Shown: in pieces, positions 1 through 63,001 of the stretch
Layout of the letters: every line of letters begins with the position of its first letter
How positions within the stretch are numbered: position 1 is the first letter of the stretch
NCBI GenBank assembly: GCA_947624205.1
Contig: CANQJI010000002.1
Location: forward strand, 1-64,000
Length of the DNA stretch: 64,000 bases
Reading direction: 5' to 3'
Source of the DNA: an uncultured Akkermansia sp.
GTDB taxonomy: Bacteria > Verrucomicrobiota > Verrucomicrobiia > Verrucomicrobiales > Akkermansiaceae
Translations under genes and position numbers: made by a program
The notes under the pieces: generated by a model
The model's input: only the letters and a program-made list of their open reading frames with translations
Told to the model about the DNA's origin: nothing
The model's database searches: none

Positions 1-53
1 GGCAAAAACAAAAGTCGATGGCAAAAACAAAAGTCGATGACAAAAATGAAAGT
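1..53. repeat. Short tandem repeat (~19 bp: ggcaaaaacaaaagtcgat x2 plus a degenerate third copy), truncated by window start
   Basis: Direct reading of bases 1-53; two exact copies followed by gacaaaaatgaaagt. Confidence 0.7.
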
Positions 54-62
54 TCCATGTTA

Positions 63-1187: not shown

Positions 1188-1260
1188 TACGTGCCCAGTA
1201 AAATTATTTAGACCAAGTTGAATATGTATTCTTGGTCTTCTTACACCTAGATGATATACT
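1188..1260 (-). promoter_or_regulatory. Promoter-like AGTATATCAT plus conserved leader AAGAAGACCAAGAATACAT..ACTTGGTCTAAATAATTTTA and hairpin, upstream of the 383-1159 gene
   Basis: Same arrangement at 52520-52610. Confidence 0.6.
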
Positions 1261-4046: not shown

Positions 4047-4784
4047 ATGGCAAAAGAAACCAACACCCCTATCACACCAATTCTTCCCGGCAGCCCCAAG
4101 CAGCAAGAAATCACCCGGGCGATCGAAGATCATGTACGTCCGATTCTGTCGAAGGATGCTCGCTATGACGTCCATCGTCCGTTTCTGATGTATACCACGG
4201 CCGTCTGTGTGCTGAAAGCTTTTGTCCATCAGATCAACAAGTTGGTCTTGACGGGTCACGATGGGCGACTGAACCTGGGGCCAGTTCTGGGAGCGGCGCT
4301 TTCTGCGAAAGCAGCAGATGCTGAGAAGGATGGCAATCTGAATATCATCCTGTATCCGTTGGACGATGACCTGCGGGTCACCGATCTGAAGGATTTTATC
4401 TTTGATGGCACCGATCCAAGCAAGCAGAATCCGAATTCTCCGGTGATGGAATCTCTGCCGATGGCGCTGAAAGTTCGGAACCCGATGGAAGGTGAGGTTC
4501 TGAAAGAGATCGACCGACTGGCGAATGCGAGCATGATGATGAATCATGGCATTTCCTATCGGGAGATGTATGGCGCCGTCGTGATCGGTGTCTATTTTAT
4601 CACCGGAGCGATTGAGTATTTGAAGCAACTCGCCGCTGAGGGAAAACATGGATTCTACAACCTGGGCGACGTGGTTGAGATCAAATATACCACGACGGAT
4701 GAGGGCAAGCCTGTTTTGAACTTCGCTCCCGGCGTCATTGCCAAGCTGACGATCAAACAAGACTCGGCCACCGAAACCGCGTAA
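4047..4784 (+). CDS. Hypothetical phage protein
   Basis: ORF with good RBS. Confidence 0.8.
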   Translation: MAKETNTPITPILPGSPKQQEITRAIEDHVRPILSKDARYDVHRPFLMYTTAVCVLKAFVHQINKLVLTGHDGRLNLGPVLGAALSAKAADAEKDGNLNIILYPLDDDLRVTDLKDFIFDGTDPSKQNPNSPVMESLPMALKVRNPMEGEVLKEIDRLANASMMMNHGISYREMYGAVVIGVYFITGAIEYLKQLAAEGKHGFYNLGDVVEIKYTTTDEGKPVLNFAPGVIAKLTIKQDSATETA

Positions 4785-8119: not shown

Positions 8120-10144
8120 ATGGCAATTGGTGTTGATATTGATTACCATGGCCACCCAAAGTCCAGTTTTGAAGATCTGATTCGCAAGTACACCGGTGTC
8201 TATCTCTGCCTGGACGATGTCCTGCAGGATAAGAAGCACTATATCGAAGTCTATCAAGATCTTCTAGACATTCTCAAATATGCTTTTGAGGTCAAAGAGG
8301 TTCGGGAACGCCCGATCCACTTTATCCTCCATCATGGGGATGACCCCAAGAAGCAAAAATACACGCTGGAGCTTCGTCACTTCCTGAGCAATATGATCTT
8401 CTGGTATGCATTCATGGAATGCGATTGCTATGAAGCCATCCAGCCCTGTCATATTCACGATTTCCGTGGTGCCTCTCTGGAGCAGAATGTCGAATTCATC
8501 GACAATATGATTCTGCCTGCCATCGAGGATGTCGACTTCCCAACCAAATCCCGTATTGTGGAAGAGATCACGCACCATATGACGGCCATCTCTCAGGCAT
8601 TCGCTCCGCTCTTCGGATTGGGCATCTCGGTCTATTCCATCATTCAAGCCGATAAGCGGAATCCGCGTATTGGTGAGTTGATGCATGAGAAACTGGATCC
8701 CACTATGCAGCCAACCGAGATTGAGGCGGAGCTGAATAAGCGGACCCAGGAATTGATCGACCTGATTGTCGAGGATCCGGACAATGATCTGAAGCCGCTC
8801 TTCAAATCTGGCAACGCTCTGTCCACTGGCCAGTTTAAAGAGATCGCCATCATGATCGGTCTGAAATCCGACATCAATGGCTCGACCGTTCCGTATCTGA
8901 TCAAGCAAAATATCCTGGTGGATGGCTTGAACTCTCCGTCTGCAATCTTCCTGGATGGCATGTCGGGCCGCAAAGCACTGATCATGTCCAAGACCAAGAT
9001 GGGCGAGCCTGGTGCTTTCTCCAAGAAAGCGACCACCGCCGCTACTCTGGTGCAGCTGCGTCGAGACTACAAGCGGTGCAATACCCAGAAGCCCATCACC
9101 TACCTCATTCGGGACGCCAAGTTCCTGAAGATGCTGGACAAGCGGTACTACTATGATGAGAACGGTAATCTGAAGATGTTGGATTATCGGAAAGATACCG
9201 ATCTCATTGGGCATCGCATCATGTTCCGCTCTCCCTGCACCTGCGCTTCCCGAGATGGCATCTGTGCCTGTTGCTATGGCGGTCTATTCGAATTGAATCA
9301 TGATCTCTACTCGGCAGGTGCCTATGGTGCCATTAAGATTACAGAGCCTCTTGGCCAACACGTGCTCTCCTCCAAACATCTTCAGATGACACACAGTGAT
9401 CCCATCGAAATGTCGGAGGACTTCTCCAAGCTCTTTGAGCTATACTCCAACGATATCACCATTCGCCCCGATGCTGATAGTGATGAAGATCTCTATCTGA
9501 AACTGGGAGAAGTGCATGCCGAGGAGTCGGAGGATTCCACCGAATACTATTGCACGTCTTTCGACGTTGTCAATATGGCGGGCATGCGCGTCTTCCATGT
9601 CCAGGAGAACAGTGGCGCCAAGATGTATCTGACACCCGATCTTCTGGTTGCTTACAAGCGGGCCAAGGACAAACCCATCGCTCTCGATTCCTTCGACGAC
9701 GAGTCTTCCGTGCTCTTCAATGTCGAGGTCAAGAATAAAGAGTTGACCCGTCCGATCAAGAACATCAACAGCCTGCTGAATACCAAATACAAGATGGGTT
9801 GCACGACGATTGATGAAGTCTGTCAGATGATGGCTGAGCAACAGCTGGAAGCTGGTATTAACTACAACTTCGTGCATTTCGAGATGCTCATTCGTGCTCT
9901 GATTCGTAAGGGTACCAATGTGTATGAGGAGCCGGACTTCGGTCCCAATGGAGATCCCGAGGATTACACCATTCTCCGGTTGAACGATGCACTCTTCAAG
10001 TCTCCGTCTCCCACCATCTCGCTCTCGTATGGCTATCTGAAGCGTCAGCTGCTGTCGCCCGAGTTCTATGAGAAGAGGCAACCCAGTCATCTGGATCCTC
10101 TCTTCGTCACCAACCTGGCTCACGTCCTTCCGCCAGACGATTAA
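8120..10144 (+). CDS. DNA-directed RNA polymerase beta' subunit fragment (C-terminal part: bridge helix/trigger-loop region, zinc site)
   Basis: IFLDGMSGRKALIMSKTKMGEPGAFSKKA (cf. [28 protein letters not shown]), CTCASRDGICACCYGG, AGAYGAIKITEPLGQHVLSSKHLQMTHS (cf. [21 protein letters not shown]). Confidence 0.9.
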   Translation: MAIGVDIDYHGHPKSSFEDLIRKYTGVYLCLDDVLQDKKHYIEVYQDLLDILKYAFEVKEVRERPIHFILHHGDDPKKQKYTLELRHFLSNMIFWYAFMECDCYEAIQPCHIHDFRGASLEQNVEFIDNMILPAIEDVDFPTKSRIVEEITHHMTAISQAFAPLFGLGISVYSIIQADKRNPRIGELMHEKLDPTMQPTEIEAELNKRTQELIDLIVEDPDNDLKPLFKSGNALSTGQFKEIAIMIGLKSDINGSTVPYLIKQNILVDGLNSPSAIFLDGMSGRKALIMSKTKMGEPGAFSKKATTAATLVQLRRDYKRCNTQKPITYLIRDAKFLKMLDKRYYYDENGNLKMLDYRKDTDLIGHRIMFRSPCTCASRDGICACCYGGLFELNHDLYSAGAYGAIKITEPLGQHVLSSKHLQMTHSDPIEMSEDFSKLFELYSNDITIRPDADSDEDLYLKLGEVHAEESEDSTEYYCTSFDVVNMAGMRVFHVQENSGAKMYLTPDLLVAYKRAKDKPIALDSFDDESSVLFNVEVKNKELTRPIKNINSLLNTKYKMGCTTIDEVCQMMAEQQLEAGINYNFVHFEMLIRALIRKGTNVYEEPDFGPNGDPEDYTILRLNDALFKSPSPTISLSYGYLKRQLLSPEFYEKRQPSHLDPLFVTNLAHVLPPDD

Positions 10145-10158
10145 AGGAGGGACAGAGA

Positions 10159-10437
10159 GTGGACTTCGGCTATGTATTCCTATTTGCGGATATCATGGGA
10201 ATCGTCGGAATCGCTCTGTTTTCCACCATCACCTCCCTCTTAGAGTTGAATCGGAAAGCTCTAAGAGGGAGGGATCTGGAAGAGGAGGAAATCGATTATC
10301 TCACGAGCCGCCATCAAATGCTATATCGAATGGCTGCCTTTCTTTTTGTCTTCGGTGTGATTGTCCTCCTGATTGCAGCGATCGGTTCCTGGGCACTATG
10401 CTTCGATGTCATCCGGAGTATACCAGCTGCGTCGTAA
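10159..10437 (+). CDS. Small membrane protein
   Basis: Two hydrophobic helices; AAAGGAGG RBS, GTG start. Confidence 0.65.
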   Translation: MDFGYVFLFADIMGIVGIALFSTITSLLELNRKALRGRDLEEEEIDYLTSRHQMLYRMAAFLFVFGVIVLLIAAIGSWALCFDVIRSIPAAS

Positions 10438-10440
10438 GAA

Positions 10441-10449
10441 GTATATTAT
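10441..10449 (+). promoter_or_regulatory. Promoter-like motif GTATATTAT
   Basis: Upstream of the 10518 gene; matches recurrent motif. Confidence 0.5.
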
Positions 10450-10517
10450 AACGACGGCACAATGGTATTTCATGCCCTGTAACCTCGGTGTAATCAGAAC
10501 GGAAGGAGGAATCTGTG

Positions 10518-10778
10518 ATGATCGAAGATCTGATGTGGTTGCTCTTGCGCTGTATTGGGGTCGCTTACATCGTCCTCTGCGTGACGGCAGTCCTATCAGT
10601 CATCAGCCTATTGATCGATACGATCCTATTCAAGTGTAAAAACATTCGTCTCATGGAAAACCCTGTGTATCTACAATGCACGAAATACGCAATGGGGGCT
10701 TTTGGAATATCTGGTATGATAATTGTGGTCGGATTGACAATCCTATTCGTCCGCATGTTCATAATTGTCTTCTGCTAA
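10518..10778 (+). CDS. Small membrane protein
   Basis: Two hydrophobic helices; GGAGGA RBS. Confidence 0.65.
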   Translation: MIEDLMWLLLRCIGVAYIVLCVTAVLSVISLLIDTILFKCKNIRLMENPVYLQCTKYAMGAFGISGMIIVVGLTILFVRMFIIVFC

Positions 10779-10809
10779 TCTAGTACTGTGTCGAAAGAAG
10801 GAGATCCCC

Positions 10810-12114
10810 ATGAAAAACAAGCCCAGCCGTCCTCGGTATCGTCTCTCGCGGAGAGTCATGAAGTTGGGTCGAACGATCCACGTCTATCTGCGTGAGCATG
10901 AATTCGAGGACTTGGTTTCCAAGAAAAAGCCCCTGCGTGTCGTCGTATCGCCTGTTGGCTCCAAGTCACTTGGTGCCTGGGCGCACTACTATAACAGCAA
11001 AAATCCCGTCGTACGTAAAAGTTTCCGTGTCAAAAACAAGGCAACGATCCAAGAGAGGAGAAAACCTATGAATGATGCATGGAAAGAGCCGGATGTGGTC
11101 CATGTCAAGAACATCGAAGATCCAGCCAAATACCCCGAGTATTTCGGAGATCCGAACGACCCAAATCCCAACCAGATCAATTTCCTGGACGACGATCAGG
11201 CGGTTTCTTCGGCGATCCTGGATTCTAAGGAAGGTATTCTGGATTCTGCTCCTGATGGCCCGAGGGCTTGGGCAAAGATGATCCTCGCTACCTATCCGAC
11301 TTTCGAATACTACGAAACCCTCACCCACGATCAGAAGATCGCTCTGACCACCTGGGCGGTGCATCACTCCGATGACGAGGATGAGGATATCAATATCCCG
11401 ATGCTGCTCGAATTCCTGGCTACGCAGCCGGATCCTCTGAATCCTGAAGAGGAAGATGCACAGATGCTGGCGGAGGAAGAGACCGAGACTCCGGTATTCG
11501 TGCCGGATGATGTTGATCCTGAAGTCTCCAAGCTTTTCGATCATTTCGAGAAAGCAGTCCAGCCGCCTGAGAAGGAAGTGGATCCGAATCCGGAGATCGA
11601 CCCCGATCTTCCCGATGATGGAGAGCCTCTTGATCTGGGCGAAGTTGGACTGGATGGTCCTGCGGACGATATCCTGGATCAACTCGAGGCAGAGCTGCAG
11701 CAAGTCCCGACGGATTTTGCCACCGAGATTCAGAAGGCAAAGATCATGGATGGGCATTACTATCGCCTCCAGTTTGACGTGATGGGAGACTATGCGAGCC
11801 TGAAGGATATCATGGAAGCTATCGCGTTCCGTGTCGCTTCTGTCGGCGGCGCCAACCACAACGACATCGTATTCCAGATGGAGTCCGAGGTCCGTCCTGG
11901 TCAGCGTTCTCTTCCGATGGCCGTCGTCGTCAAGAATGGCAATGGAGTCGATCCCGATTGCAACGCCATTGCACAGAAACTCTTTGACGACATCCTGACC
12001 AACTCGGTGATCGCGATGAATCAGCCGACCACCGTTGATCCCGCGCTGATGGAAGCTGCTGATCCTATCGTCGCCACTGAGGTGGAACCGTTCGACGTTC
12101 AGAATCAGCAATAA
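10810..12114 (+). CDS. Hypothetical protein, basic N-terminal region followed by acidic region
   Basis: AAGGAGA RBS; in-frame second RBS+ATG at 11068. Confidence 0.75.
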   Translation: MKNKPSRPRYRLSRRVMKLGRTIHVYLREHEFEDLVSKKKPLRVVVSPVGSKSLGAWAHYYNSKNPVVRKSFRVKNKATIQERRKPMNDAWKEPDVVHVKNIEDPAKYPEYFGDPNDPNPNQINFLDDDQAVSSAILDSKEGILDSAPDGPRAWAKMILATYPTFEYYETLTHDQKIALTTWAVHHSDDEDEDINIPMLLEFLATQPDPLNPEEEDAQMLAEEETETPVFVPDDVDPEVSKLFDHFEKAVQPPEKEVDPNPEIDPDLPDDGEPLDLGEVGLDGPADDILDQLEAELQQVPTDFATEIQKAKIMDGHYYRLQFDVMGDYASLKDIMEAIAFRVASVGGANHNDIVFQMESEVRPGQRSLPMAVVVKNGNGVDPDCNAIAQKLFDDILTNSVIAMNQPTTVDPALMEAADPIVATEVEPFDVQNQQ

Positions 12115-12120
12115 AAATAA

Positions 12121-12160
12121 AAAAAGAAAGGTCTACCGTGATTGGTAGACCTTTCTTTTT
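12121..12160. terminator. Bidirectional terminator between convergent genes
   Basis: AAAAAGAAAGGTCTACC-GTGATT-GGTAGACCTTTCTTTTT. Confidence 0.9.
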
Positions 12161-12559
12161 TTATTGTCTGGTGGTGCTATAATAGTCGCAGATCTCTTCA
12201 GCCGTTGCTCCACACTGAGACTCAGGGAAGACGATGAACGTCTGGAAGCGATCCAACGGGATATATCGAACGAAGCCTTCGCCAAGCCTCGTGCAAAGTC
12301 GCCAGGGATATTGACTGCTCGACGGCTCAGTCATCATAGCTGCGCCGACGATCATAACGGAGTGATTCCCGGGGAAGCGAACCACACCAATTTCGTCGCT
12401 GCGATTCCCCAGATAAGGAGCCACGCTGTCGACAGAAGTGATACCGGCAACACAGAGAGGGCTGCCGCCGTTTTCTTGTAGGAGCGAATCCAATTCCGCG
12501 AATGAGTTCAGAATCTTGAGTTCACTCAGGCTTGCCTGGTTCATCTTACGATGCACCAT
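12161..12559 (-). CDS. Hypothetical protein
   Basis: ORF followed by terminator, promoter-like motif upstream. Confidence 0.65.
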   Translation of the reverse strand: MVHRKMNQASLSELKILNSFAELDSLLQENGGSPLCVAGITSVDSVAPYLGNRSDEIGVVRFPGNHSVMIVGAAMMTEPSSSQYPWRLCTRLGEGFVRYIPLDRFQTFIVFPESQCGATAEEICDYYSTTRQ

Positions 12560-12582
12560 CCTTTCCTAATAACTACCCTCGG

Positions 12583-12592
12583 ATGATATACT
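12583..12592 (-). promoter_or_regulatory. Promoter-like motif AGTATATCAT
   Basis: ~25-30 nt upstream of the minus gene start. Confidence 0.5.
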
Positions 12593-12720
12593 TCATGCCG
12601 AGGGTGTTTAATCAGTCGTTGTAGTTGTGGCGCTAAAGGTCGTTTAAAAATCTATACAAATTTTGTATATCGTATCCTCGGATATTTCCTAAGATCATAT
12701 AAAAATTTGGAGGTGAGTGT

Positions 12721-14232
12721 ATGGGAGGCAAAGCGAAATGGATGGATGCACCAAAGAAGATCTTTGTGACAACGACCGGTATCATGATTACGCCCTACAA
12801 GTCCAATCTGAATCCGAGGTTTGAAGCCTTGCATTCGGTGCCGAATTATGGGCGACGATGGAGAACTCCTTTCACTGGGTATTATCACAAAGAGGAGCAC
12901 TTCTATTCGTGTGCGATGATGAATCCCAGAAAGGTACAGGTTGATTATTTCCCCGATTATGAGATTGAGTATGCCAATCCCGTACGAGGGCTCGGAACCT
13001 ATCCATTCGAGTTTAAATCGGATGAGTATAGTTTGCGAGACCAGCAGCAGGCGTTTGTGGAAGAGGCGACTTCGTACGAACTTCGTGGTTGCCGTCGAAT
13101 CTTCAATAATCTGCAAACAGGATTGGGCAAGACCGCCGCGACGATTTATATGATTGCACAGCATCAGAAGAAAGCCGCTATCATCAGTCATATGAAGAAT
13201 ATCCTATCGCAGTGGGAGACTGCCTTTGAAAAGTTTACGACAATCCCGCCAGATAGGATTCTGATATGCGATAAGAGCGAGATCTTGATCAAAGCAATAG
13301 TGGATCCCTATCCGATTCGTAACTACGATATCTTCATTATGTCTCATGCGTTGATTGAGAGTCTAGCAAGGCGAATTGGATGGGTTGGCGTATCTCAGGT
13401 ATTTGGTGCATTGGGCGTCGGTATTAAGGTATACGACGAAGCACATCGGAATCTCGAGTCCATGATCACGTTGGATTCCGTGACTTCCGTAGAATACACC
13501 TACTATCTGACGGCTGACTTCAATCAATCCACCAAAGCCAAAGGGTCCAAGTATCAACGAGTCTTTGATGGAGTCCCAATTCTCCCCGAAGAACAAGAGA
13601 TGCGCACGCTCAAATACGTCAATGTACTGACGATGACGTACAACAGTCATCCTACCATGCTGGAGCAGCAGAGCGTAATGACCCGGCAGGGCTTCTCCCG
13701 ATTCCATTATATGCGATATCAATATCGGAAGCCCTATGTATTGCACTGTATAGAAGCCGTGATTCATCATTTCTATACGGATCCTCAGTATGCGGATAAC
13801 CAATCCCGTGTCTTGGTCCTCACGTCGCTCATCGAGCATGTCGACTACCTTTTTGCGGAGATTCAGAGTCGATTCCCCGATAAAGTCGTCGGAATCTACC
13901 ACGGAGATGTCGATAAAGCGACGAAAGATGAATCCAAGAAAAATGCAGATATTATCGTTGCGTCTTACAGCAGCTTTTCCTATGGTATCGATGCGCCCAA
14001 TATCGCATGCGTGATCTCCTGTGACCCAGTCGATCGACTGGCAGATAACCAGGCGGCAGGCCGCGCTCGTCCACAACCAGGGAAGCAAGCTCTGTATGTC
14101 ATGCTGTATGATATGGGTTTCGACCGCTCCGTTCGTTCCAAGGCGACTCGAACTCAATATCTGCAAAATAGCAAGGCCTCGAAATTCTACACCATCAATG
14201 TCTCAGAAAAGGATGTGATACCCAATGCCTGA
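12721..14232 (+). CDS. Superfamily 2 (SNF2/UvsW-like) helicase
   Basis: Walker A NLQTGLGKTAA, DEAH box VYDEAHRN, motif VI-like AAGRARPQPGK. Confidence 0.88.
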   Translation: MGGKAKWMDAPKKIFVTTTGIMITPYKSNLNPRFEALHSVPNYGRRWRTPFTGYYHKEEHFYSCAMMNPRKVQVDYFPDYEIEYANPVRGLGTYPFEFKSDEYSLRDQQQAFVEEATSYELRGCRRIFNNLQTGLGKTAATIYMIAQHQKKAAIISHMKNILSQWETAFEKFTTIPPDRILICDKSEILIKAIVDPYPIRNYDIFIMSHALIESLARRIGWVGVSQVFGALGVGIKVYDEAHRNLESMITLDSVTSVEYTYYLTADFNQSTKAKGSKYQRVFDGVPILPEEQEMRTLKYVNVLTMTYNSHPTMLEQQSVMTRQGFSRFHYMRYQYRKPYVLHCIEAVIHHFYTDPQYADNQSRVLVLTSLIEHVDYLFAEIQSRFPDKVVGIYHGDVDKATKDESKKNADIIVASYSSFSYGIDAPNIACVISCDPVDRLADNQAAGRARPQPGKQALYVMLYDMGFDRSVRSKATRTQYLQNSKASKFYTINVSEKDVIPNA

Positions 14233-19721: not shown

Positions 19722-19730
19722 ATGATATAT
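19722..19730 (-). promoter_or_regulatory. Promoter-like motif ATATATCAT for 19255-19668
   Basis: Divergent pair with 19755-19764. Confidence 0.5.
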
Positions 19731-19754
19731 GTGTAGAAAAGAATCACCTTATCG

Positions 19755-19764
19755 CATATATCAT
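19755..19764 (+). promoter_or_regulatory. Promoter-like motif CATATATCAT for the 19834 gene
   Basis: Divergent pair with 19722-19730. Confidence 0.5.
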
Positions 19765-19833
19765 ACTGGTGCTCAATACGATATTCTTCGTGTTGTGTAT
19801 GAAAGAGAATCTCAATTTACAGGAGGCAAGCAA

Positions 19834-33093: not shown

Positions 33094-33170
33094 GGTTTAC
33101 CTCCTTAGAATTTGGAACGGATTTGTTCGACGTTGAAATGAATGAATTTTATCCATCTCAGCTTACCCAA

Positions 33171-33180
33171 ATGATATATA
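33171..33180 (-). promoter_or_regulatory. Promoter-like motif TATATATCAT
   Basis: Matches recurrent motif; upstream of 32176-33093. Confidence 0.45.
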
Positions 33181-38104: not shown

Positions 38105-40621
38105 TTAGACGCTCTCCTCAGCGAGGGTGTCGTCATCGAGATCGTCGGTCTCTTCCGAACTGATATCGAGTTCGGGCTTCTTGGTGCTTGTGATGGCAAT
38201 CAGGAGGTCAGCTGTCAAATTCGGAACATCTTGAATCATCTCTTGAACCTCCGGAAGCGAGAATACATATTCCCATGCAGACTTCCGAACACCATCCGGA
38301 TCGTTGGTGACAACGGTATTCTCATCCAGGAACTCATGATACTTATCAAAGAGCTTCTCATAGATGGGGCGATTCTGCAGATAGTCCATGATGGTGTAAC
38401 CACGAACTCGGAATTCAGTGATGACATTCCGGGAGATCTCCTCATATTCGCCGTCGACCATATAGTTGATACGAACGCCGATACCTTTGAGATACGCATC
38501 CAGGATCTGCGCGTTGACATTGGTATACTCATCTTTGACGACGAGCTTTTCGATGTTGAAGGGATCCCCAGATGCGCGAAGAATACGATCAAGCGATTTG
38601 CGCCCAATGGGAGAGGAACGGGTGAAGATGTTGAACTCGGCAATCGTAGAACCAGACAACGCCGCCATCAGGTTGTGCGTCTCGCCAATCTTGATGGGAG
38701 ACCGACTGTAGGCAGCCAAGCCTGTCTTTTTGTCGTTGGACTTGGCAGGGCACTGACGCTTGTCAGTACGACCGGTGGAACGTGCCGAGAAGTTCTTGTT
38801 GGACGTCTGCTTCAGAAGACACATATACTTGCTGCCGATGACAGCGGGCCGCATGATCTTCTTCTGTTTCATTCCAAAGAGATCGATATAGACATCGTAG
38901 GGTTTGATCCAGGGCCATTCATCATACAGGCGCTTCAGGCAGTCGTAGCGAATATGACTATCCGGGCGTTTGACGATGTAGAAGCCGTTCTCTTCGATGT
39001 CTTTGATGAAGTCTTCCTGCGCTTGACGATCATAGAGCTCAATCTCGTTCTGCCCTACGGCCTCAATCTGGGTATAGGAATTCCAGAGATTCAGATAATA
39101 GTCATGCTCTTCCTGGTTTAACAGTTCCAGGAAACGGAAGACAACAGCGAGTTTCTCTTCCACGGTGGGAAGCTTGCGGATATAGCGCTGCAGATGCTCA
39201 CCGATGAAGTTGATCTCCACCTCATAGAGCTGGTCGGAGTTCAACCGGCGAATGGCGCCAGAGGAATTCAATAGAATATCCACGACAACCTTTTCGCCAT
39301 CCTCGGTGAAGTAATAGGGCATATCACAATCCTCGACGATATCCACATTCTTAGCATTCTCTGCCATGGTATGAGGATTGGAATCGTCGGAGAATTGGTC
39401 CATGATACACTGCGCAATCTGATTGTACGCGGCAGCCGGAGGCACATCAGACGACATTTCACCAGCCGTCGTAATCTTGGAGATAATACCTTTATCACCA
39501 TAGCGGCCTGTCAGCTTAAAGCCCTCCTGCAGGTCTACCACAGAGCAGGTCTTAAAGACAACGACCATATTGGCGAAGACACGATCACGATCTTTCCAGC
39601 TATACTGGCGATCGGTGAAATGCTGATACCGTGCTTTGTAATAGGAGATCTGCGGCGTGCAACGAGAACCCGAATCCATGATGGTGGAGCAGATATGCGC
39701 AACACGGTCGGCATACTCGCATTCCATATCATAGTAGGTCCTCAGCTGCCGATAGAAAACGGTATCGGGGAATTCACCCTCCCCATTGTAGTAGATGTCG
39801 ATATCGTAAATCTTGGATCCCTTCGGCGCGTGATACAGGGTGTCTGTATACGCAATGGACCGAAGATGACGATCTTGGAAATCATACAGGGCATGATTCA
39901 GATTGATACGACCGACAGCACACACGACGGAATCGTGGACGTGCTCACCGATATCGGGGAAGGATTTGTAATTTTGATCATCGCCGTAGAGATTCTTGAG
40001 GAAGTCATTGCTATTGATCATGACACGGACTTCATCGACCTCAACGGACTGTACACCGTTGGCCCAGCCACGACGAAGCTTGATGGCATCTTCGATGGTG
40101 GAGTTATCGGTGACATACATAACACGAGCATTCTTGCCAATGCGGTAGTTCATATGCTCGTCGTAGGAAGTGGACTTATAGAGGACAGCATCCGTGATGA
40201 CGTCTCCCTCTTTGAGAGAATCCATGAAGCTGGTGTTGTAGGCAAAGCCAAACTTCTCTGTCAGATTCTCTGCAATCTGCTTCTCCACACAATCCCAGGT
40301 ATCTGTGTCAGGGTTGTAGAGAAACATCATGTAGACGTCTCCGGTCTTGTACTTGGGGACAATATAACGAACTTCCCAACGCCCCGTCATCCGTTTGTAT
40401 GCATGGCTGTAATCACCAAACATGTTTTCGTATCCTGTCAGGATATGCGGGACATCAGGATTCATCAAAGTCAAAAACTGCTTTTGGTTGGAGGAGAACA
40501 TGTTGAGGCGGCTCGAATCGCATCCTTCCGGGAATCCCAGAAGCGTCGGTCCGAAAAGCTTCTCCATCTTATCGCCCCACTCTTCATCGAGCCGGCGATA
40601 TTCTTCTGTACCAATTGCCAT
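38105..40621 (-). CDS. DNA-directed RNA polymerase beta subunit fragment (C-terminal part)
   Basis: LQEGFKLTGRYGDKGIISKI (cf. GDKLAGRHGNKGVVSKI), EDCDMPYYFTEDGEKVVVDILLNSSGAIRRLNSDQLYE (cf. [29 protein letters not shown]), LLKQTSNKNFSARSTGR..PIKIGETHNLMAALSG (cf. HHLVDDKMHARSTGP..FGEMEVWALEAYG). Confidence 0.92.
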   Translation of the reverse strand: MAIGTEEYRRLDEEWGDKMEKLFGPTLLGFPEGCDSSRLNMFSSNQKQFLTLMNPDVPHILTGYENMFGDYSHAYKRMTGRWEVRYIVPKYKTGDVYMMFLYNPDTDTWDCVEKQIAENLTEKFGFAYNTSFMDSLKEGDVITDAVLYKSTSYDEHMNYRIGKNARVMYVTDNSTIEDAIKLRRGWANGVQSVEVDEVRVMINSNDFLKNLYGDDQNYKSFPDIGEHVHDSVVCAVGRINLNHALYDFQDRHLRSIAYTDTLYHAPKGSKIYDIDIYYNGEGEFPDTVFYRQLRTYYDMECEYADRVAHICSTIMDSGSRCTPQISYYKARYQHFTDRQYSWKDRDRVFANMVVVFKTCSVVDLQEGFKLTGRYGDKGIISKITTAGEMSSDVPPAAAYNQIAQCIMDQFSDDSNPHTMAENAKNVDIVEDCDMPYYFTEDGEKVVVDILLNSSGAIRRLNSDQLYEVEINFIGEHLQRYIRKLPTVEEKLAVVFRFLELLNQEEHDYYLNLWNSYTQIEAVGQNEIELYDRQAQEDFIKDIEENGFYIVKRPDSHIRYDCLKRLYDEWPWIKPYDVYIDLFGMKQKKIMRPAVIGSKYMCLLKQTSNKNFSARSTGRTDKRQCPAKSNDKKTGLAAYSRSPIKIGETHNLMAALSGSTIAEFNIFTRSSPIGRKSLDRILRASGDPFNIEKLVVKDEYTNVNAQILDAYLKGIGVRINYMVDGEYEEISRNVITEFRVRGYTIMDYLQNRPIYEKLFDKYHEFLDENTVVTNDPDGVRKSAWEYVFSLPEVQEMIQDVPNLTADLLIAITSTKKPELDISSEETDDLDDDTLAEESV

Positions 40622-45142: not shown

Positions 45143-46105
45143 TTAGGTGGGGAAGAGCCTCGACTGAGCGGGGATCCTGCTGAGGATGTTGGACGGTTTA
45201 TCGCCGATCAGATGGATTGACATGAACGGATTCTGATCAAACAGCCCATCCGGGAAGACGTGATCGATGCGTGCCATCTGTTGACCCTCTGTATCATCGA
45301 TTGCCAGTTCCGTGCACTTGTAGTGCGGGCTGTTACAATCTTCGATATCGGACTTGTCCAGGATCTTCATGGTGCAATAATCCTCGATGACGGGAAGCGA
45401 CACGCCATACTGCTCCACCATGACATAGACAGCTTTGGATGCCGGGAATCGCATCTTCCGTCCACTGGTAACTCGGGTCACATCGTCGAAGCGATGATGG
45501 GTTTCCGGGAAGAACGCGTAGTAGCTCTCAGGATAAGAGCCGGCGCTGATCTCCTCGGTGATCACAATGGACCCACCCAGAATCTTGTATTCGGGTCTCT
45601 TCTGGATCGGCGTCATAATCCCATGGATCGGTTCGGCCAACAGGGTGTAGGCCTTAAACTTCTCGCGGCTCCACGCTTCTGTGAAGATGCGAGAAACCGC
45701 GACTTTCGGTTCCGTGGGAATGACCGCCACAAACTTGGACTGACTGAGACGATCATAGATGACACCGGTCTTGCCATTCATCTCCTGGACGAGAGCATCC
45801 TCCGGATTGCCATCCTGGCACAGTGCCTCGAAATCCTTTTCAGAATATACTTCGGCATCCAGAGTGACGGGACCGAGATTGCTGGCGTTCCTAGTCATGG
45901 CGAACTTCAGGACCGAAGCCGTGGACAGGCGCTCACTACCCTCTGTGGGTGTATCGTGCTTTGACTCAACGATCGTCAGAAACGGAGTAACCAGCCGAAG
46001 CCGAAGTTTTGCGTACATCGGCTCGGCATAGCAACTCAGTAACCAGAAGTCCCCAATGTCAATGAACTCTGTCCTCATCAAAGACAGATTGCTGATTGTG
46101 AGCAT
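45143..46105 (-). CDS. Hypothetical phage protein
   Basis: Long ORF. Confidence 0.8.
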   Translation of the reverse strand: MLTISNLSLMRTEFIDIGDFWLLSCYAEPMYAKLRLRLVTPFLTIVESKHDTPTEGSERLSTASVLKFAMTRNASNLGPVTLDAEVYSEKDFEALCQDGNPEDALVQEMNGKTGVIYDRLSQSKFVAVIPTEPKVAVSRIFTEAWSREKFKAYTLLAEPIHGIMTPIQKRPEYKILGGSIVITEEISAGSYPESYYAFFPETHHRFDDVTRVTSGRKMRFPASKAVYVMVEQYGVSLPVIEDYCTMKILDKSDIEDCNSPHYKCTELAIDDTEGQQMARIDHVFPDGLFDQNPFMSIHLIGDKPSNILSRIPAQSRLFPT

Positions 46106-47235: not shown

Positions 47236-48438
47236 TCAGAAGATGTCCGGAATGTCGCTCGCAACATCCTCGCTGTCATTGGCAATGGTAGCGATACCAA
47301 GGATCTGAGAGCGATGCGAACTATCACGAGCAGCGCGGATGGCACCCATCTCAGCCATCGTCTTGCTCATATCACCGACATCGCGCTCCTGGAAAATTGC
47401 GTTGCACTTCTTGGCAATCTCAGCGCATTCGTCCAGACGATCAATCGGCTTATTCATGCCAGACAAGATCACACCCAATTCGGCCGTGGGCTTGGAGACC
47501 ACAGCGTAATTGAGGAAAGTGACCAGCGGGTTGCCGATAAATTTCTCCAGTTCAGAGAAATCACCAGCCTTGCAATGCGGGTCATCCAGTTGATCAGTAG
47601 CATTGATGAAGATGCCCATATTGTGGACAACCTTATCACGCTGCATCGGAGCAGCCGGAGAACTGGAAATTGCCTTGACCATAATAGACTGCAGCGTTGT
47701 ATTCTCGGTTTCCTTCTGGGTGATCTTATCCTTGTGATAAATCGCGAGAAGCCCAGGCGTCGACAGGATCGACAGCATGTCATTCTCATCGATCATCCCA
47801 TAGGGAGAGCGATTCAGATAATCGCCACGGATCACGTTCATGCAGTCCACGATGTATTCCCCAGTACGGCGGAATGCATCTTCATTCGGATCGTCCTCGA
47901 AGTAATGAAGATCAGCCAGGATATAGGTCATGCCCAACTTCTCGTTGGTGACCTCGTTCATGCATTCGAGGGTGTTGTACTGAGCCTGCGCGGACTCAGA
48001 ATGTTTCGGAAGAATCCCGAAGAAGATCACGATCTTATTCGGATACTTCGCCATGATGCGGTTGGTCAGCAGAGGACCAGCGCCAGAGCCTGTGCCACCA
48101 GCAGTGCTTGCTACTACGACAACCACGTCGGCGGCAGAGACGACAGAGTTAAAATCGGGATTGTCAAGGATCGAGACAAGCTCTGCTTTCATGAACTCCT
48201 TGGCAATATTACGGTCTTTGCCGGCACCACGTTTGTTGCCGATGACCGCCGTGGGGATCTCCTTATTCAGGAGATGATAATCCAGGTCCTTGGCGCTCGA
48301 GTTGATCGCCATGACCGAGTGCCCAGCCTTATAGGCCAGGTCGGCTGCTTGACAGCCAGCGTTGCCGATGCCGATCATCGAAACCTTGAGTTTGGTGGAC
48401 TCTTTGATGATGTCGGACAATTGATTTTCGACAGACAT
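47236..48438 (-). CDS. FtsZ/tubulin-like GTPase
   Basis: VSMIGIGNAGCQAADL N-terminal P-loop-like motif, tubulin signature STAGGTGSGAGPLL. Confidence 0.88.
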   Translation of the reverse strand: MSVENQLSDIIKESTKLKVSMIGIGNAGCQAADLAYKAGHSVMAINSSAKDLDYHLLNKEIPTAVIGNKRGAGKDRNIAKEFMKAELVSILDNPDFNSVVSAADVVVVVASTAGGTGSGAGPLLTNRIMAKYPNKIVIFFGILPKHSESAQAQYNTLECMNEVTNEKLGMTYILADLHYFEDDPNEDAFRRTGEYIVDCMNVIRGDYLNRSPYGMIDENDMLSILSTPGLLAIYHKDKITQKETENTTLQSIMVKAISSSPAAPMQRDKVVHNMGIFINATDQLDDPHCKAGDFSELEKFIGNPLVTFLNYAVVSKPTAELGVILSGMNKPIDRLDECAEIAKKCNAIFQERDVGDMSKTMAEMGAIRAARDSSHRSQILGIATIANDSEDVASDIPDIF

Positions 48439-48491
48439 ATGATTGCTCCTTTCTACATCCCAGGGTGTAGTATAGTCCCGGGTGCAGCAAA

Positions 48492-48500
48492 ATGATATAC
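48492..48500 (-). promoter_or_regulatory. Promoter-like motif GTATATCAT
   Basis: ~54 nt upstream of the tubulin-like gene. Confidence 0.5.
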
Positions 48501-50996: not shown

Positions 50997-52058
50997 TTAC
51001 TTGACGACGATCTTCGGATTGGCGGCTTCGCCGTTGCTCGGAACCATCGCTTTGCGCTTGTTGACACGCGGCTTGATATAGACGGTTTTGCCACTCTTGT
51101 AGTGACGGACATGCCCCCGGACCTGCCACTTGTCCACCGTATAATGGCGTTCGGAGAAGTATCCGGTACCTTTCTCGGCGGCATAGTAGCGAGGACGCAC
51201 GGTGTGAGAGCCGGAGGTGTTGATGACTTTCACCTTCGGCGGAGTGACACCGCTCATTGCGGTTTCTTCAACAACCGGAAGCGCTTTCTTGGGTTTACGA
51301 CCGGGCTTCTTCTTGACCTTAACCGGCTTCAGCCCATCGGGCGTCCATCCCTGCATCATGGAATAGTTGACCAGCGACATAGTGACCAGGGCCGCCGTGA
51401 CCTGGTTCTTCTGGAAATCCTCCCAAGGCCCAGGCGTCCAATCTTCCCTCACTTTCTTAGCCAGCGCTTTCCAGAAGTCAAGATAGTTTGGACGGATCTG
51501 CTTCTTGTGACGGGTCGCAACAGACATGACACGGTAGTCTTTCACGACGCGGAACGGCGTGGGATAATCTTCAATGCTGGATAGCGGCTGATCACCATCG
51601 ACGCAGTAGACCTGTATATCCATGGATGCTACGCAGAACGAGCAATCTCCGAAATCGTGGAACGGCTTGATCCAGATCTCGAGATGCAACTTGGCAGAGT
51701 TATCGTCGTTGCCCAGGATCTTGATGAAATACTTCCGGACAGTGTCATTGGGAATCAGCCAGGTATTCGGGTAAGGTGGGACCGTCATCCACATGGCATC
51801 GATGGCAGGAGCATTGAAAAATTCGCCGCCACCGTTGGCCTCAATATTTCGGTACAGGTCTGTGAGGCCGACATTCAAATGGATCTCTGCAGCGCCATCG
51901 CGGTCACTATCGGGACGGATCGCACGATCCGCAATCATCATGGAACGGAGCTGCTTGGCGAAGGCTTCGGACATGTCGTAGGCAAGCTTAATATCACTGG
52001 CATCCATGACAAGGGCATCGGGATTGACTTTCATATAATTTCCGAATCGCAAATCCAT
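50997..52058 (-). CDS. Hypothetical protein with AT-hook-like basic segment
   Basis: KVKKKPGRKPKK; C-terminal WQVRGHVRHYKSGKTVYIKPRVNKRK; start after GAGGAAG. Confidence 0.78.
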   Translation of the reverse strand: MDLRFGNYMKVNPDALVMDASDIKLAYDMSEAFAKQLRSMMIADRAIRPDSDRDGAAEIHLNVGLTDLYRNIEANGGGEFFNAPAIDAMWMTVPPYPNTWLIPNDTVRKYFIKILGNDDNSAKLHLEIWIKPFHDFGDCSFCVASMDIQVYCVDGDQPLSSIEDYPTPFRVVKDYRVMSVATRHKKQIRPNYLDFWKALAKKVREDWTPGPWEDFQKNQVTAALVTMSLVNYSMMQGWTPDGLKPVKVKKKPGRKPKKALPVVEETAMSGVTPPKVKVINTSGSHTVRPRYYAAEKGTGYFSERHYTVDKWQVRGHVRHYKSGKTVYIKPRVNKRKAMVPSNGEAANPKIVVK

Positions 52059-52151
52059 ACACGCAACTTCCTCTCTGTTTTTATTCAAAAATAGCGGGTC
52101 CCTATTGGGGCCCGCAATCATGAGTGAATTTCGGATGAGGCCGGGAAGCTG

Positions 52152-52505
52152 TTACGCTTCCTCAGTCTCAACCTCGACGAACTTGCGGCGGGCGGTAGCC
52201 ATGAGCTTCTCGATCTTCTCGACAACCTTCTTGACGATGTGGAAGATGAAGTCGGGAATGGTCACGAGGTAGACCTCCATCTGGCCCTGGAAATTGGCGC
52301 CAAGGCGCTCGGCGATCAGCTGGCGGGCCGGGATGACATCGTCAGCCGCTTCACCAGTCTTGGCGTTGCGGACCATGGGGATGTCGGCGATCTTGCAGAC
52401 GAGGAACTCGACGACGGTTTGGAACGTGGCGGCGATGCCCATGATGGCAGAGTAGACCATGACGAGATTGAAGATGACGGTGGCGATTTTCTTGATGGTT
52501 TTCAT
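52152..52505 (-). CDS. Small membrane-associated protein
   Basis: N-terminal hydrophobic helix; AAAGGAAC RBS; conserved leader. Confidence 0.75.
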   Translation of the reverse strand: MKTIKKIATVIFNLVMVYSAIMGIAATFQTVVEFLVCKIADIPMVRNAKTGEAADDVIPARQLIAERLGANFQGQMEVYLVTIPDFIFHIVKKVVEKIEKLMATARRKFVEVETEEA

Positions 52506-52519
52506 AATAAGTTCCTTTC

Positions 52520-52610
52520 CTCCCGTTGTTACGTGTGGGAGCGCACATAATTTTATTTAGGGCCAAGTGAAATGTATTCTTGGTCCTTCTTATACCTTTA
52601 TAATATACCA
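52520..52610 (-). promoter_or_regulatory. Second copy of conserved promoter/leader module (GGTATATTAT + AAGAAGGACCAAGAATACATTTCACTTGGCCCTAAATAAAATTA + hairpin)
   Basis: Close match to 1188-1260. Confidence 0.6.
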
Positions 52611-62928: not shown

Positions 62929-62992
62929 GTCATTTCACTCCTTTTCGTAGGCTTCTGAATTGTCTTGCAACCACAATCCAGATGTTGCCACG

Positions 62993-63001
62993 ATGATATA
63001 C
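62993..63001 (-). promoter_or_regulatory. Promoter-like motif GTATATCAT
   Basis: Upstream of 62311-62928. Confidence 0.5.

Follow-up and report, generated by a model that had tools for sequence, protein, structure and literature searches.

The early promoters that the virion RNA polymerase of the jumbo phage AR9 recognises conform to the consensus AAATATATATTAT-6N-G(+1), and in phiKZ and phiR1-37 transcription begins 6 nt downstream of the promoter elements (PMC5312081). That study also predicts motifs (its Fig. S3) in the 5′ untranslated regions (UTRs) of AR9 early transcripts (PMC5312081). In other systems, secondary structure at the 5′ end stabilises mRNAs by hindering access of RppH and RNase E (PMC3997798). 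How early mRNAs leave the early vesicle or nucleus of nucleus-forming phages is listed as an open question in a recent review (PMC12908238), and the word 'untranslated' occurs neither in that review nor in another on jumbo phages (PMC13282480).

Here we analyse a window that comprises bases 1-64000 of C2, a contig of 69,014 bp in a 2.72-Mb assembly. C2 is jumbo-phage DNA: it encodes RNA polymerase beta-type subunits, identified by PHROGs and by homology to the AR9 non-virion RNA polymerase (nvRNAP), and so has the split multisubunit phage RNA polymerase of the phiKZ/AR9 type, along with genes for NAD ligase, terminase, SbcC, a divergent family-B DNA polymerase, GroEL and a PhuZ-like tubulin. 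The closest cultured phages to its beta subunit gene at 38105-40621 are Bacillus AR9/PBS1 (31%), the AR9 counterpart being the gene annotated as non-virion RNA polymerase.

A block shared by two distant loci

Two minus-strand loci 51 kb apart, A and B, have in common a block of about 60 nt that begins at the promoter core and ends shortly after a hairpin. The leaders and the genes behind them are as follows.

1263-1160, minus: leader A
383-1159, minus: codon-optimised gene following leader A; its 258-aa product belongs to no known family
129-347, minus: second gene of transcript A, with the most C-biased NNY codons of C2; its 72-aa product was judged hydrophobic by eye
61-92 (approximate), minus: strong GC-rich hairpin after the A operon, a probable terminator by sequence inspection
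52611-52506, minus: leader B
52152-52505, minus: gene following leader B, with the highest GC3 of C2; its 117-aa product is helical, has a hydrophobic N-terminus and belongs to no known family

When leader A was compared by blastn with the whole assembly, it matched only itself and positions 52553-52608 on the minus strand (84% over 56 nt, E = 1.4e-7), in agreement with a first-pass annotation of the sequence that had noticed two copies 51 kb apart. An HMM built from both scored its own members at 1.2e-14 and 4.9e-14 and its next match at E = 2.9, and no further copy emerged when it was run on C2, on 37 loci from related phages and on 250 kb of AR9. Pattern scans of IMG/VR, exact as well as gapped, yielded no leader copy, all matches being chance occurrences in unrelated contexts. 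The sequence common to A and B reads GTATATYAT..AGGTnTAAGAAg.GACCAAGAATACAT.TTCA.CTTGG.C.CTAAATAA..TTA; conservation runs to the TTA, past the first hairpin and its linker, and there it ends. The proteins encoded downstream gave a BLASTP E of 0.034 over 27 aa, which for a single comparison amounts to no relation and bears out the earlier impression that the genes look unrelated. Recent gene duplication that included coding sequence, the event named at first pass as fatal to a leader reading, is excluded by this dissimilarity of the downstream coding sequences. The sharing is real, limited to two places in the assembly and outside the coding sequence; as the exact sequence exists in two copies only, its conservation rests on one pair.

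Promoters of the phiKZ/AR9 type

At its upstream end the block carries TATATYAT, which on sequence grounds we assign to phiKZ/AR9-type early promoter DNA and not to leader RNA, because it lies upstream of the predicted transcription start. The first-pass annotation had placed the conservation in the UTR; that location suits the hairpin and linker but not this stretch.

1251-1258, minus: promoter core A, TATATCAT, matching the AR9 consensus, with the G at 1244 as predicted +1
52600-52607, minus: promoter core B, TATATTAT, matching the AR9 consensus, with the A at 52593 as predicted +1

Core A is one base away from the AR9 core. Its sequence is the top enriched 8-mer upstream of C2 genes (9 seen, 58-fold over expectation), and core B is likewise enriched there (4 seen, 17-fold). 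A 6-nt spacer leads to a purine at the predicted +1 in 11 of 11 C2 leaders and in 50 of 56 leaders of relatives, and both A and B have, ahead of a gene, a core resembling TATATTA(T/C) that is separated by 6 nt from a purine start. From this spacer transcription is predicted to start at 1244 (A) and 52593 (B), and the resemblance to known early promoters suggests early timing. A host sigma-70 promoter was looked for at A, and none was found. In their TATATTAT core, 6-nt spacer, purine +1 and position upstream of open reading frames (ORFs), C2 sites resemble the virion-RNA-polymerase early promoters of AR9 and phiKZ (PMC5312081); unlike those, many carry TATATCAT with a G or GG before the core and no long A/T stretch there.

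Two TATATCAT promoters lie divergently within about 36 bp at window positions 19729-19764, each followed by a hairpin near +1, and the plus-strand gene at this site, whose start is near 19831, is overlapped on the opposite strand by an ORF that a naive gene caller chooses instead. At 12575-12610 a CCCTCGG/CCGAGGG hairpin has a TATATCAT core in its loop, which means that terminator and promoter may overlap.

Structure of the two leaders

The predicted 5′ untranslated leader is about 85 nt long at each site and comprises a 5′ hairpin (hairpin 1), a linker and a second hairpin (hairpin 2) abutting the ribosome-binding site.

1210-1238, minus: hairpin 1 of leader A, AGACCAAG-(13-nt loop AATACATATTCAA)-CTTGGTCT, 8-bp stem, -9.9 kcal/mol, z -3.6, conserved with B
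1199-1209, minus: A/T-rich conserved linker of leader A, AAATAATTTTA, from the alignment
1176-1195, minus: hairpin 2 of leader A, GGCACG-(8)-CGTGCC
1168-1175, minus: Shine-Dalgarno AGAAAGGA of gene 383-1159, from sequence
52559-52587, minus: hairpin 1 of leader B, AGG-A-CCAAG-(11-nt loop AATACATTTCA)-CTTGG-C-CCT, -8.3 kcal/mol, z -2.4
52520-52541, minus: hairpin 2 of leader B, CTCCC-(12)-GGGAG
52513-52519, minus: Shine-Dalgarno GAAAGGA of gene 52152-52505, from sequence

The pairing of CCAAG with CTTGG, raised at first pass as something the sequence could do, is predicted in both leaders, where hairpin 1 begins at +7 after 6 unpaired nucleotides. The B stem consists of 5 bp, an A.C mismatch and 3 bp; relative to A it has one extra base in each arm, the two pairing together, and the one mismatch. 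The loop core AATACAT is the same in A and B within loops of 13 and 11 nt. The z-scores listed were computed on the first 45 nt; full leader B folds barely better than its shuffles (z -0.99). The second hairpins (GGCACG/CGTGCC and CTCCC/GGGAG) and AAAGGAAC are all present as previously described. Hairpin 2 keeps its form between A and B with quite different sequence, ending directly at the Shine-Dalgarno in both. At the gathering score, Rfam 15 matched only tRNAs in the window and no family at the leader, and its best sub-threshold matches lay on the opposite strand.

Codon usage of the downstream genes

The three genes behind these leaders stand apart in codon choice. Ranked by C-ending NNY codons among 71 C2 genes, 129-347 is first (fraction 0.95, binomial p about 1e-5), 52152-52505 second (0.87, 2e-5) and 383-1159 third (0.74, 2e-6), against a C2 median of 0.49; their GC3 ranks, in the same order, are 2, 1 and 3 of 71. 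Their pooled codon table contains hardly any A-ending four-fold codons and hardly any CGG or TCG, CGY makes up 85% of arginine, and GC at codon positions 1+2 is unchanged (0.450 vs 0.445). Because of these codon losses and the unchanged GC at positions 1+2, the bias is attributed to translational selection, and a GC-rich foreign origin of the three genes is ruled out. The gene at 50997-52121, next after that of B, is without the bias. The bias means that the genes are tuned for translation; it is not proof that the leader causes this. Searches of IMG/VR, a phage collection, Pfam and PHROGs returned no homologues of the proteins behind A and B, and single-sequence folds gave a model too poor to interpret for one (P0001, pLDDT 35) and two long helices at low confidence for the other (P0002).

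Hairpins near +1 across the promoter class

Hairpins were noticed on reading other TATATYAT leaders before any test was made, and the C2 set is therefore exploratory. We compared 38-nt segments with dinucleotide shuffles, taking all 11 C2 leaders of at least 35 nt. Segments starting at +1 had a mean z of -2.0 (Stouffer -6.6, or -5.2 excluding A and B); control segments had z about 0 when starting 26 nt upstream of +1 and positive values 14 nt downstream. In an independent set of 47 leaders from 19 other loci, 14 reached p < 0.05 at +1 against 2.4 expected (combined rank z -5.7), with combined z of -1.0 and -0.3 at control offsets -40 and +20. Direct counting of stems with a score of at least 7 found them in 6 of 11 C2 leaders (null 0.4) and in 17 of 56 leaders of all relatives (null 6.3). 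Examples in the window are as follows.

48453-48499, minus: same-class promoter and +1 hairpin before the PhuZ-like tubulin gene (47236-48438)
62949-63000, minus: class leader with a 10-bp stem from near +5
33127-33178, minus: class leader with a 10-bp stem from near +5

Most other class leaders have a hairpin predicted to start between +1 and +5, with loops that differ from the AATACAT loop of A and B and with unrelated stems. In five related loci (L072, L074, L075, L076 and L084) the leader of the orthologous nvRNAP-beta gene shows a stem that starts at +1 or close to it, with sequences that differ; that of L084, which exceeds the folded piece, was identified by inspection of the sequence. 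Copies in relatives had been proposed at first pass as a check on the leader: of the exact sequence none was found in IMG/VR or in the related phage loci searched, whereas 5′-proximal hairpins of other sequence recur.

Some of the relatives' hairpins precede T-runs and could be attenuators or terminators. In the related locus L026, the RNA polymerase beta gene (9983-12859) occupies two ORFs (9983-11155 and 11567-12859), split perhaps by an intron or a frameshift.

Comparison with AR9, phiKZ and stabilising stem-loops

Annotated AR9 early promoters show no +1 hairpin effect (33 sites, mean z -0.06), a null result that serves also as a control for the method. AR9, a related jumbo phage, has predicted motifs in early 5′ UTRs (PMC5312081); C2 departs from it in the enrichment of hairpins at +1. 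The first 50 kb of phiKZ (L087) show no overall +1 hairpin enrichment for the promoter class. At 45568, the phiKZ chimallin (gp54) leader has a -8.8 kcal/mol hairpin exactly at the predicted +1; as in C2, an early-type promoter is followed by a hairpin flush with +1, here on the nuclear-shell gene, although the sequence differs from A and B and there is no second copy within the 50 kb examined. The phiKZ leaders at 2665 and 4516 have 64 bp in common at 95%, from promoter to ribosome site (2640-2730 and 4491-4581), ahead of PHIKZ006 and PHIKZ010.1, between which no similarity is visible. This block parallels A and B as a promoter and 5′ leader common to two unrelated genes, demonstrating that such blocks do get copied between genes of these phages; it differs in having no strong 5′ hairpin and in the near identity of its copies.

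Escherichia coli ompA and papA mRNAs carry 5′-terminal stabilising stem-loops, and a stable hairpin within a few nucleotides of the mRNA 5′ end is likewise predicted here (+7 in A and B). Unlike those stem-loops, the C2 hairpins are phage-encoded and recur across a promoter class, and their stabilising role is putative.

Interpretation and alternatives

We lean, by a modest degree, towards an early promoter-leader cassette that was duplicated and whose 5′ hairpin makes the mRNA more stable, for high output. Each site would be an early-type promoter from which the phage's own multisubunit RNA polymerase transcribes; hairpin 1 would shield the mRNA end from 5′-end-dependent decay of the RppH/RNase J or RNase E type, hairpin 2 would keep the ribosome site open or insulated, and the two together would produce long-lived, heavily translated early messages. 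The cassette would have been duplicated or exchanged between the two loci and retained because the products of both transcripts are required in quantity. The shared block, promoter match, predicted hairpins, codon bias and class-wide hairpin near +1 are direct observations; where transcription starts, that it is early, and that the mRNA is stabilised and highly expressed are inferred. The first-pass suggestion of a cis-regulatory RNA or strong-expression leader is partly supported, its strong-expression half gaining independent support from codon optimisation and the class-wide 5′ hairpins. Several points count against a stabilised leader: the mismatch in the B stem, the weak fold of full leader B, the hairpin-less early leaders of AR9, and the start of hairpin 1 at +7 behind 6 unpaired nucleotides, since 5′-protecting hairpins are most effective close to the mRNA end.

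The main rival for the sharing between A and B is copying alone, in which a portable early-promoter cassette was duplicated by recombination and its RNA sequence has no special role. The phiKZ block at PHIKZ006 and PHIKZ010.1, seemingly unrelated genes, indicates that cassette duplication alone could explain the sharing, and the presence of just two copies in the assembly, with none found in relatives, fits it as well; yet the pair, at 84% with matched indels, is not very recent, hairpin 2 keeps its form in differing sequence beyond the point where similarity ends at hairpin 1 and linker, and both copies lie on the most codon-optimised genes, so that we regard copying alone as possible but improbable. 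The identical AATACAT core, set against the different loops of other class leaders, would suit a regulated RNA whose hairpin-1 loop AAUACAU binds a phage or host protein or a small RNA and co-regulates both transcripts; the unequal loop lengths, a membership of two and the lack of an Rfam family match make this unlikely.

The inverted repeat near the promoter in A and B also invites a reading at the DNA level, with the CCAAG...CTTGG dyad as a repressor or activator site overlapping the transcription start. Its half-sites, however, are 13 bp apart in A and 11 bp in B, a relative turn of about 70 degrees on B-DNA that argues against an operator, and unrelated stems occupy the same place in other leaders, which fits RNA structure better; we give an operator very little credence. 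Least probable of all, we think, is a put-like element, a nascent 5′ hairpin that makes the phage RNA polymerase resist termination: the hairpin does occupy the beginning of early-type transcripts and recurs across the promoter class, but AR9, the closest cultured relative, is without it.

Under the stabilised-cassette reading, the A/B leader marks genes that the phage seemingly needs in large amount, and similar hairpins at the start of many transcripts in related giant phages suggest a means by which early viral messages are protected or boosted. It is the class-wide 5′ hairpin, more than the block with its two copies, that deserves testing: AR9 early leaders lack it, the phiKZ chimallin leader has it, and it offers a concrete RNA feature for the mRNA-export question. 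As a long shot, a 5′-end hairpin on one promoter class might be a general mRNA-handling device in a clade of AR9/phiKZ-related jumbo phages. Equally speculative is the thought that, where mRNAs are transcribed within a sealed vesicle or nucleus but translated outside it, the hairpin protects them or signals their export; and it would be no less conjectural to suppose that export proceeds via an RNA-binding protein such as ChmC, with A and B as a high-output, loop-conserved version.

Origin and end of the contig

The bin that holds the phage contig is bacterial and 97.7% complete. In the assembly's own lineage, 261 genomes of the family and 385 of the class contained no relative of the C2 RNA polymerase beta subunit, and for this reason the contig may be mis-binned and the bin may not be its host. 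The contig begins, at window positions 1-57, with tandem copies of a unit of about 19 nt (GGCAAAAACAAAAGTCGAT), the third copy degenerate, just past the GC-rich hairpin downstream of the A operon; the assembly probably broke here at a repeat array.
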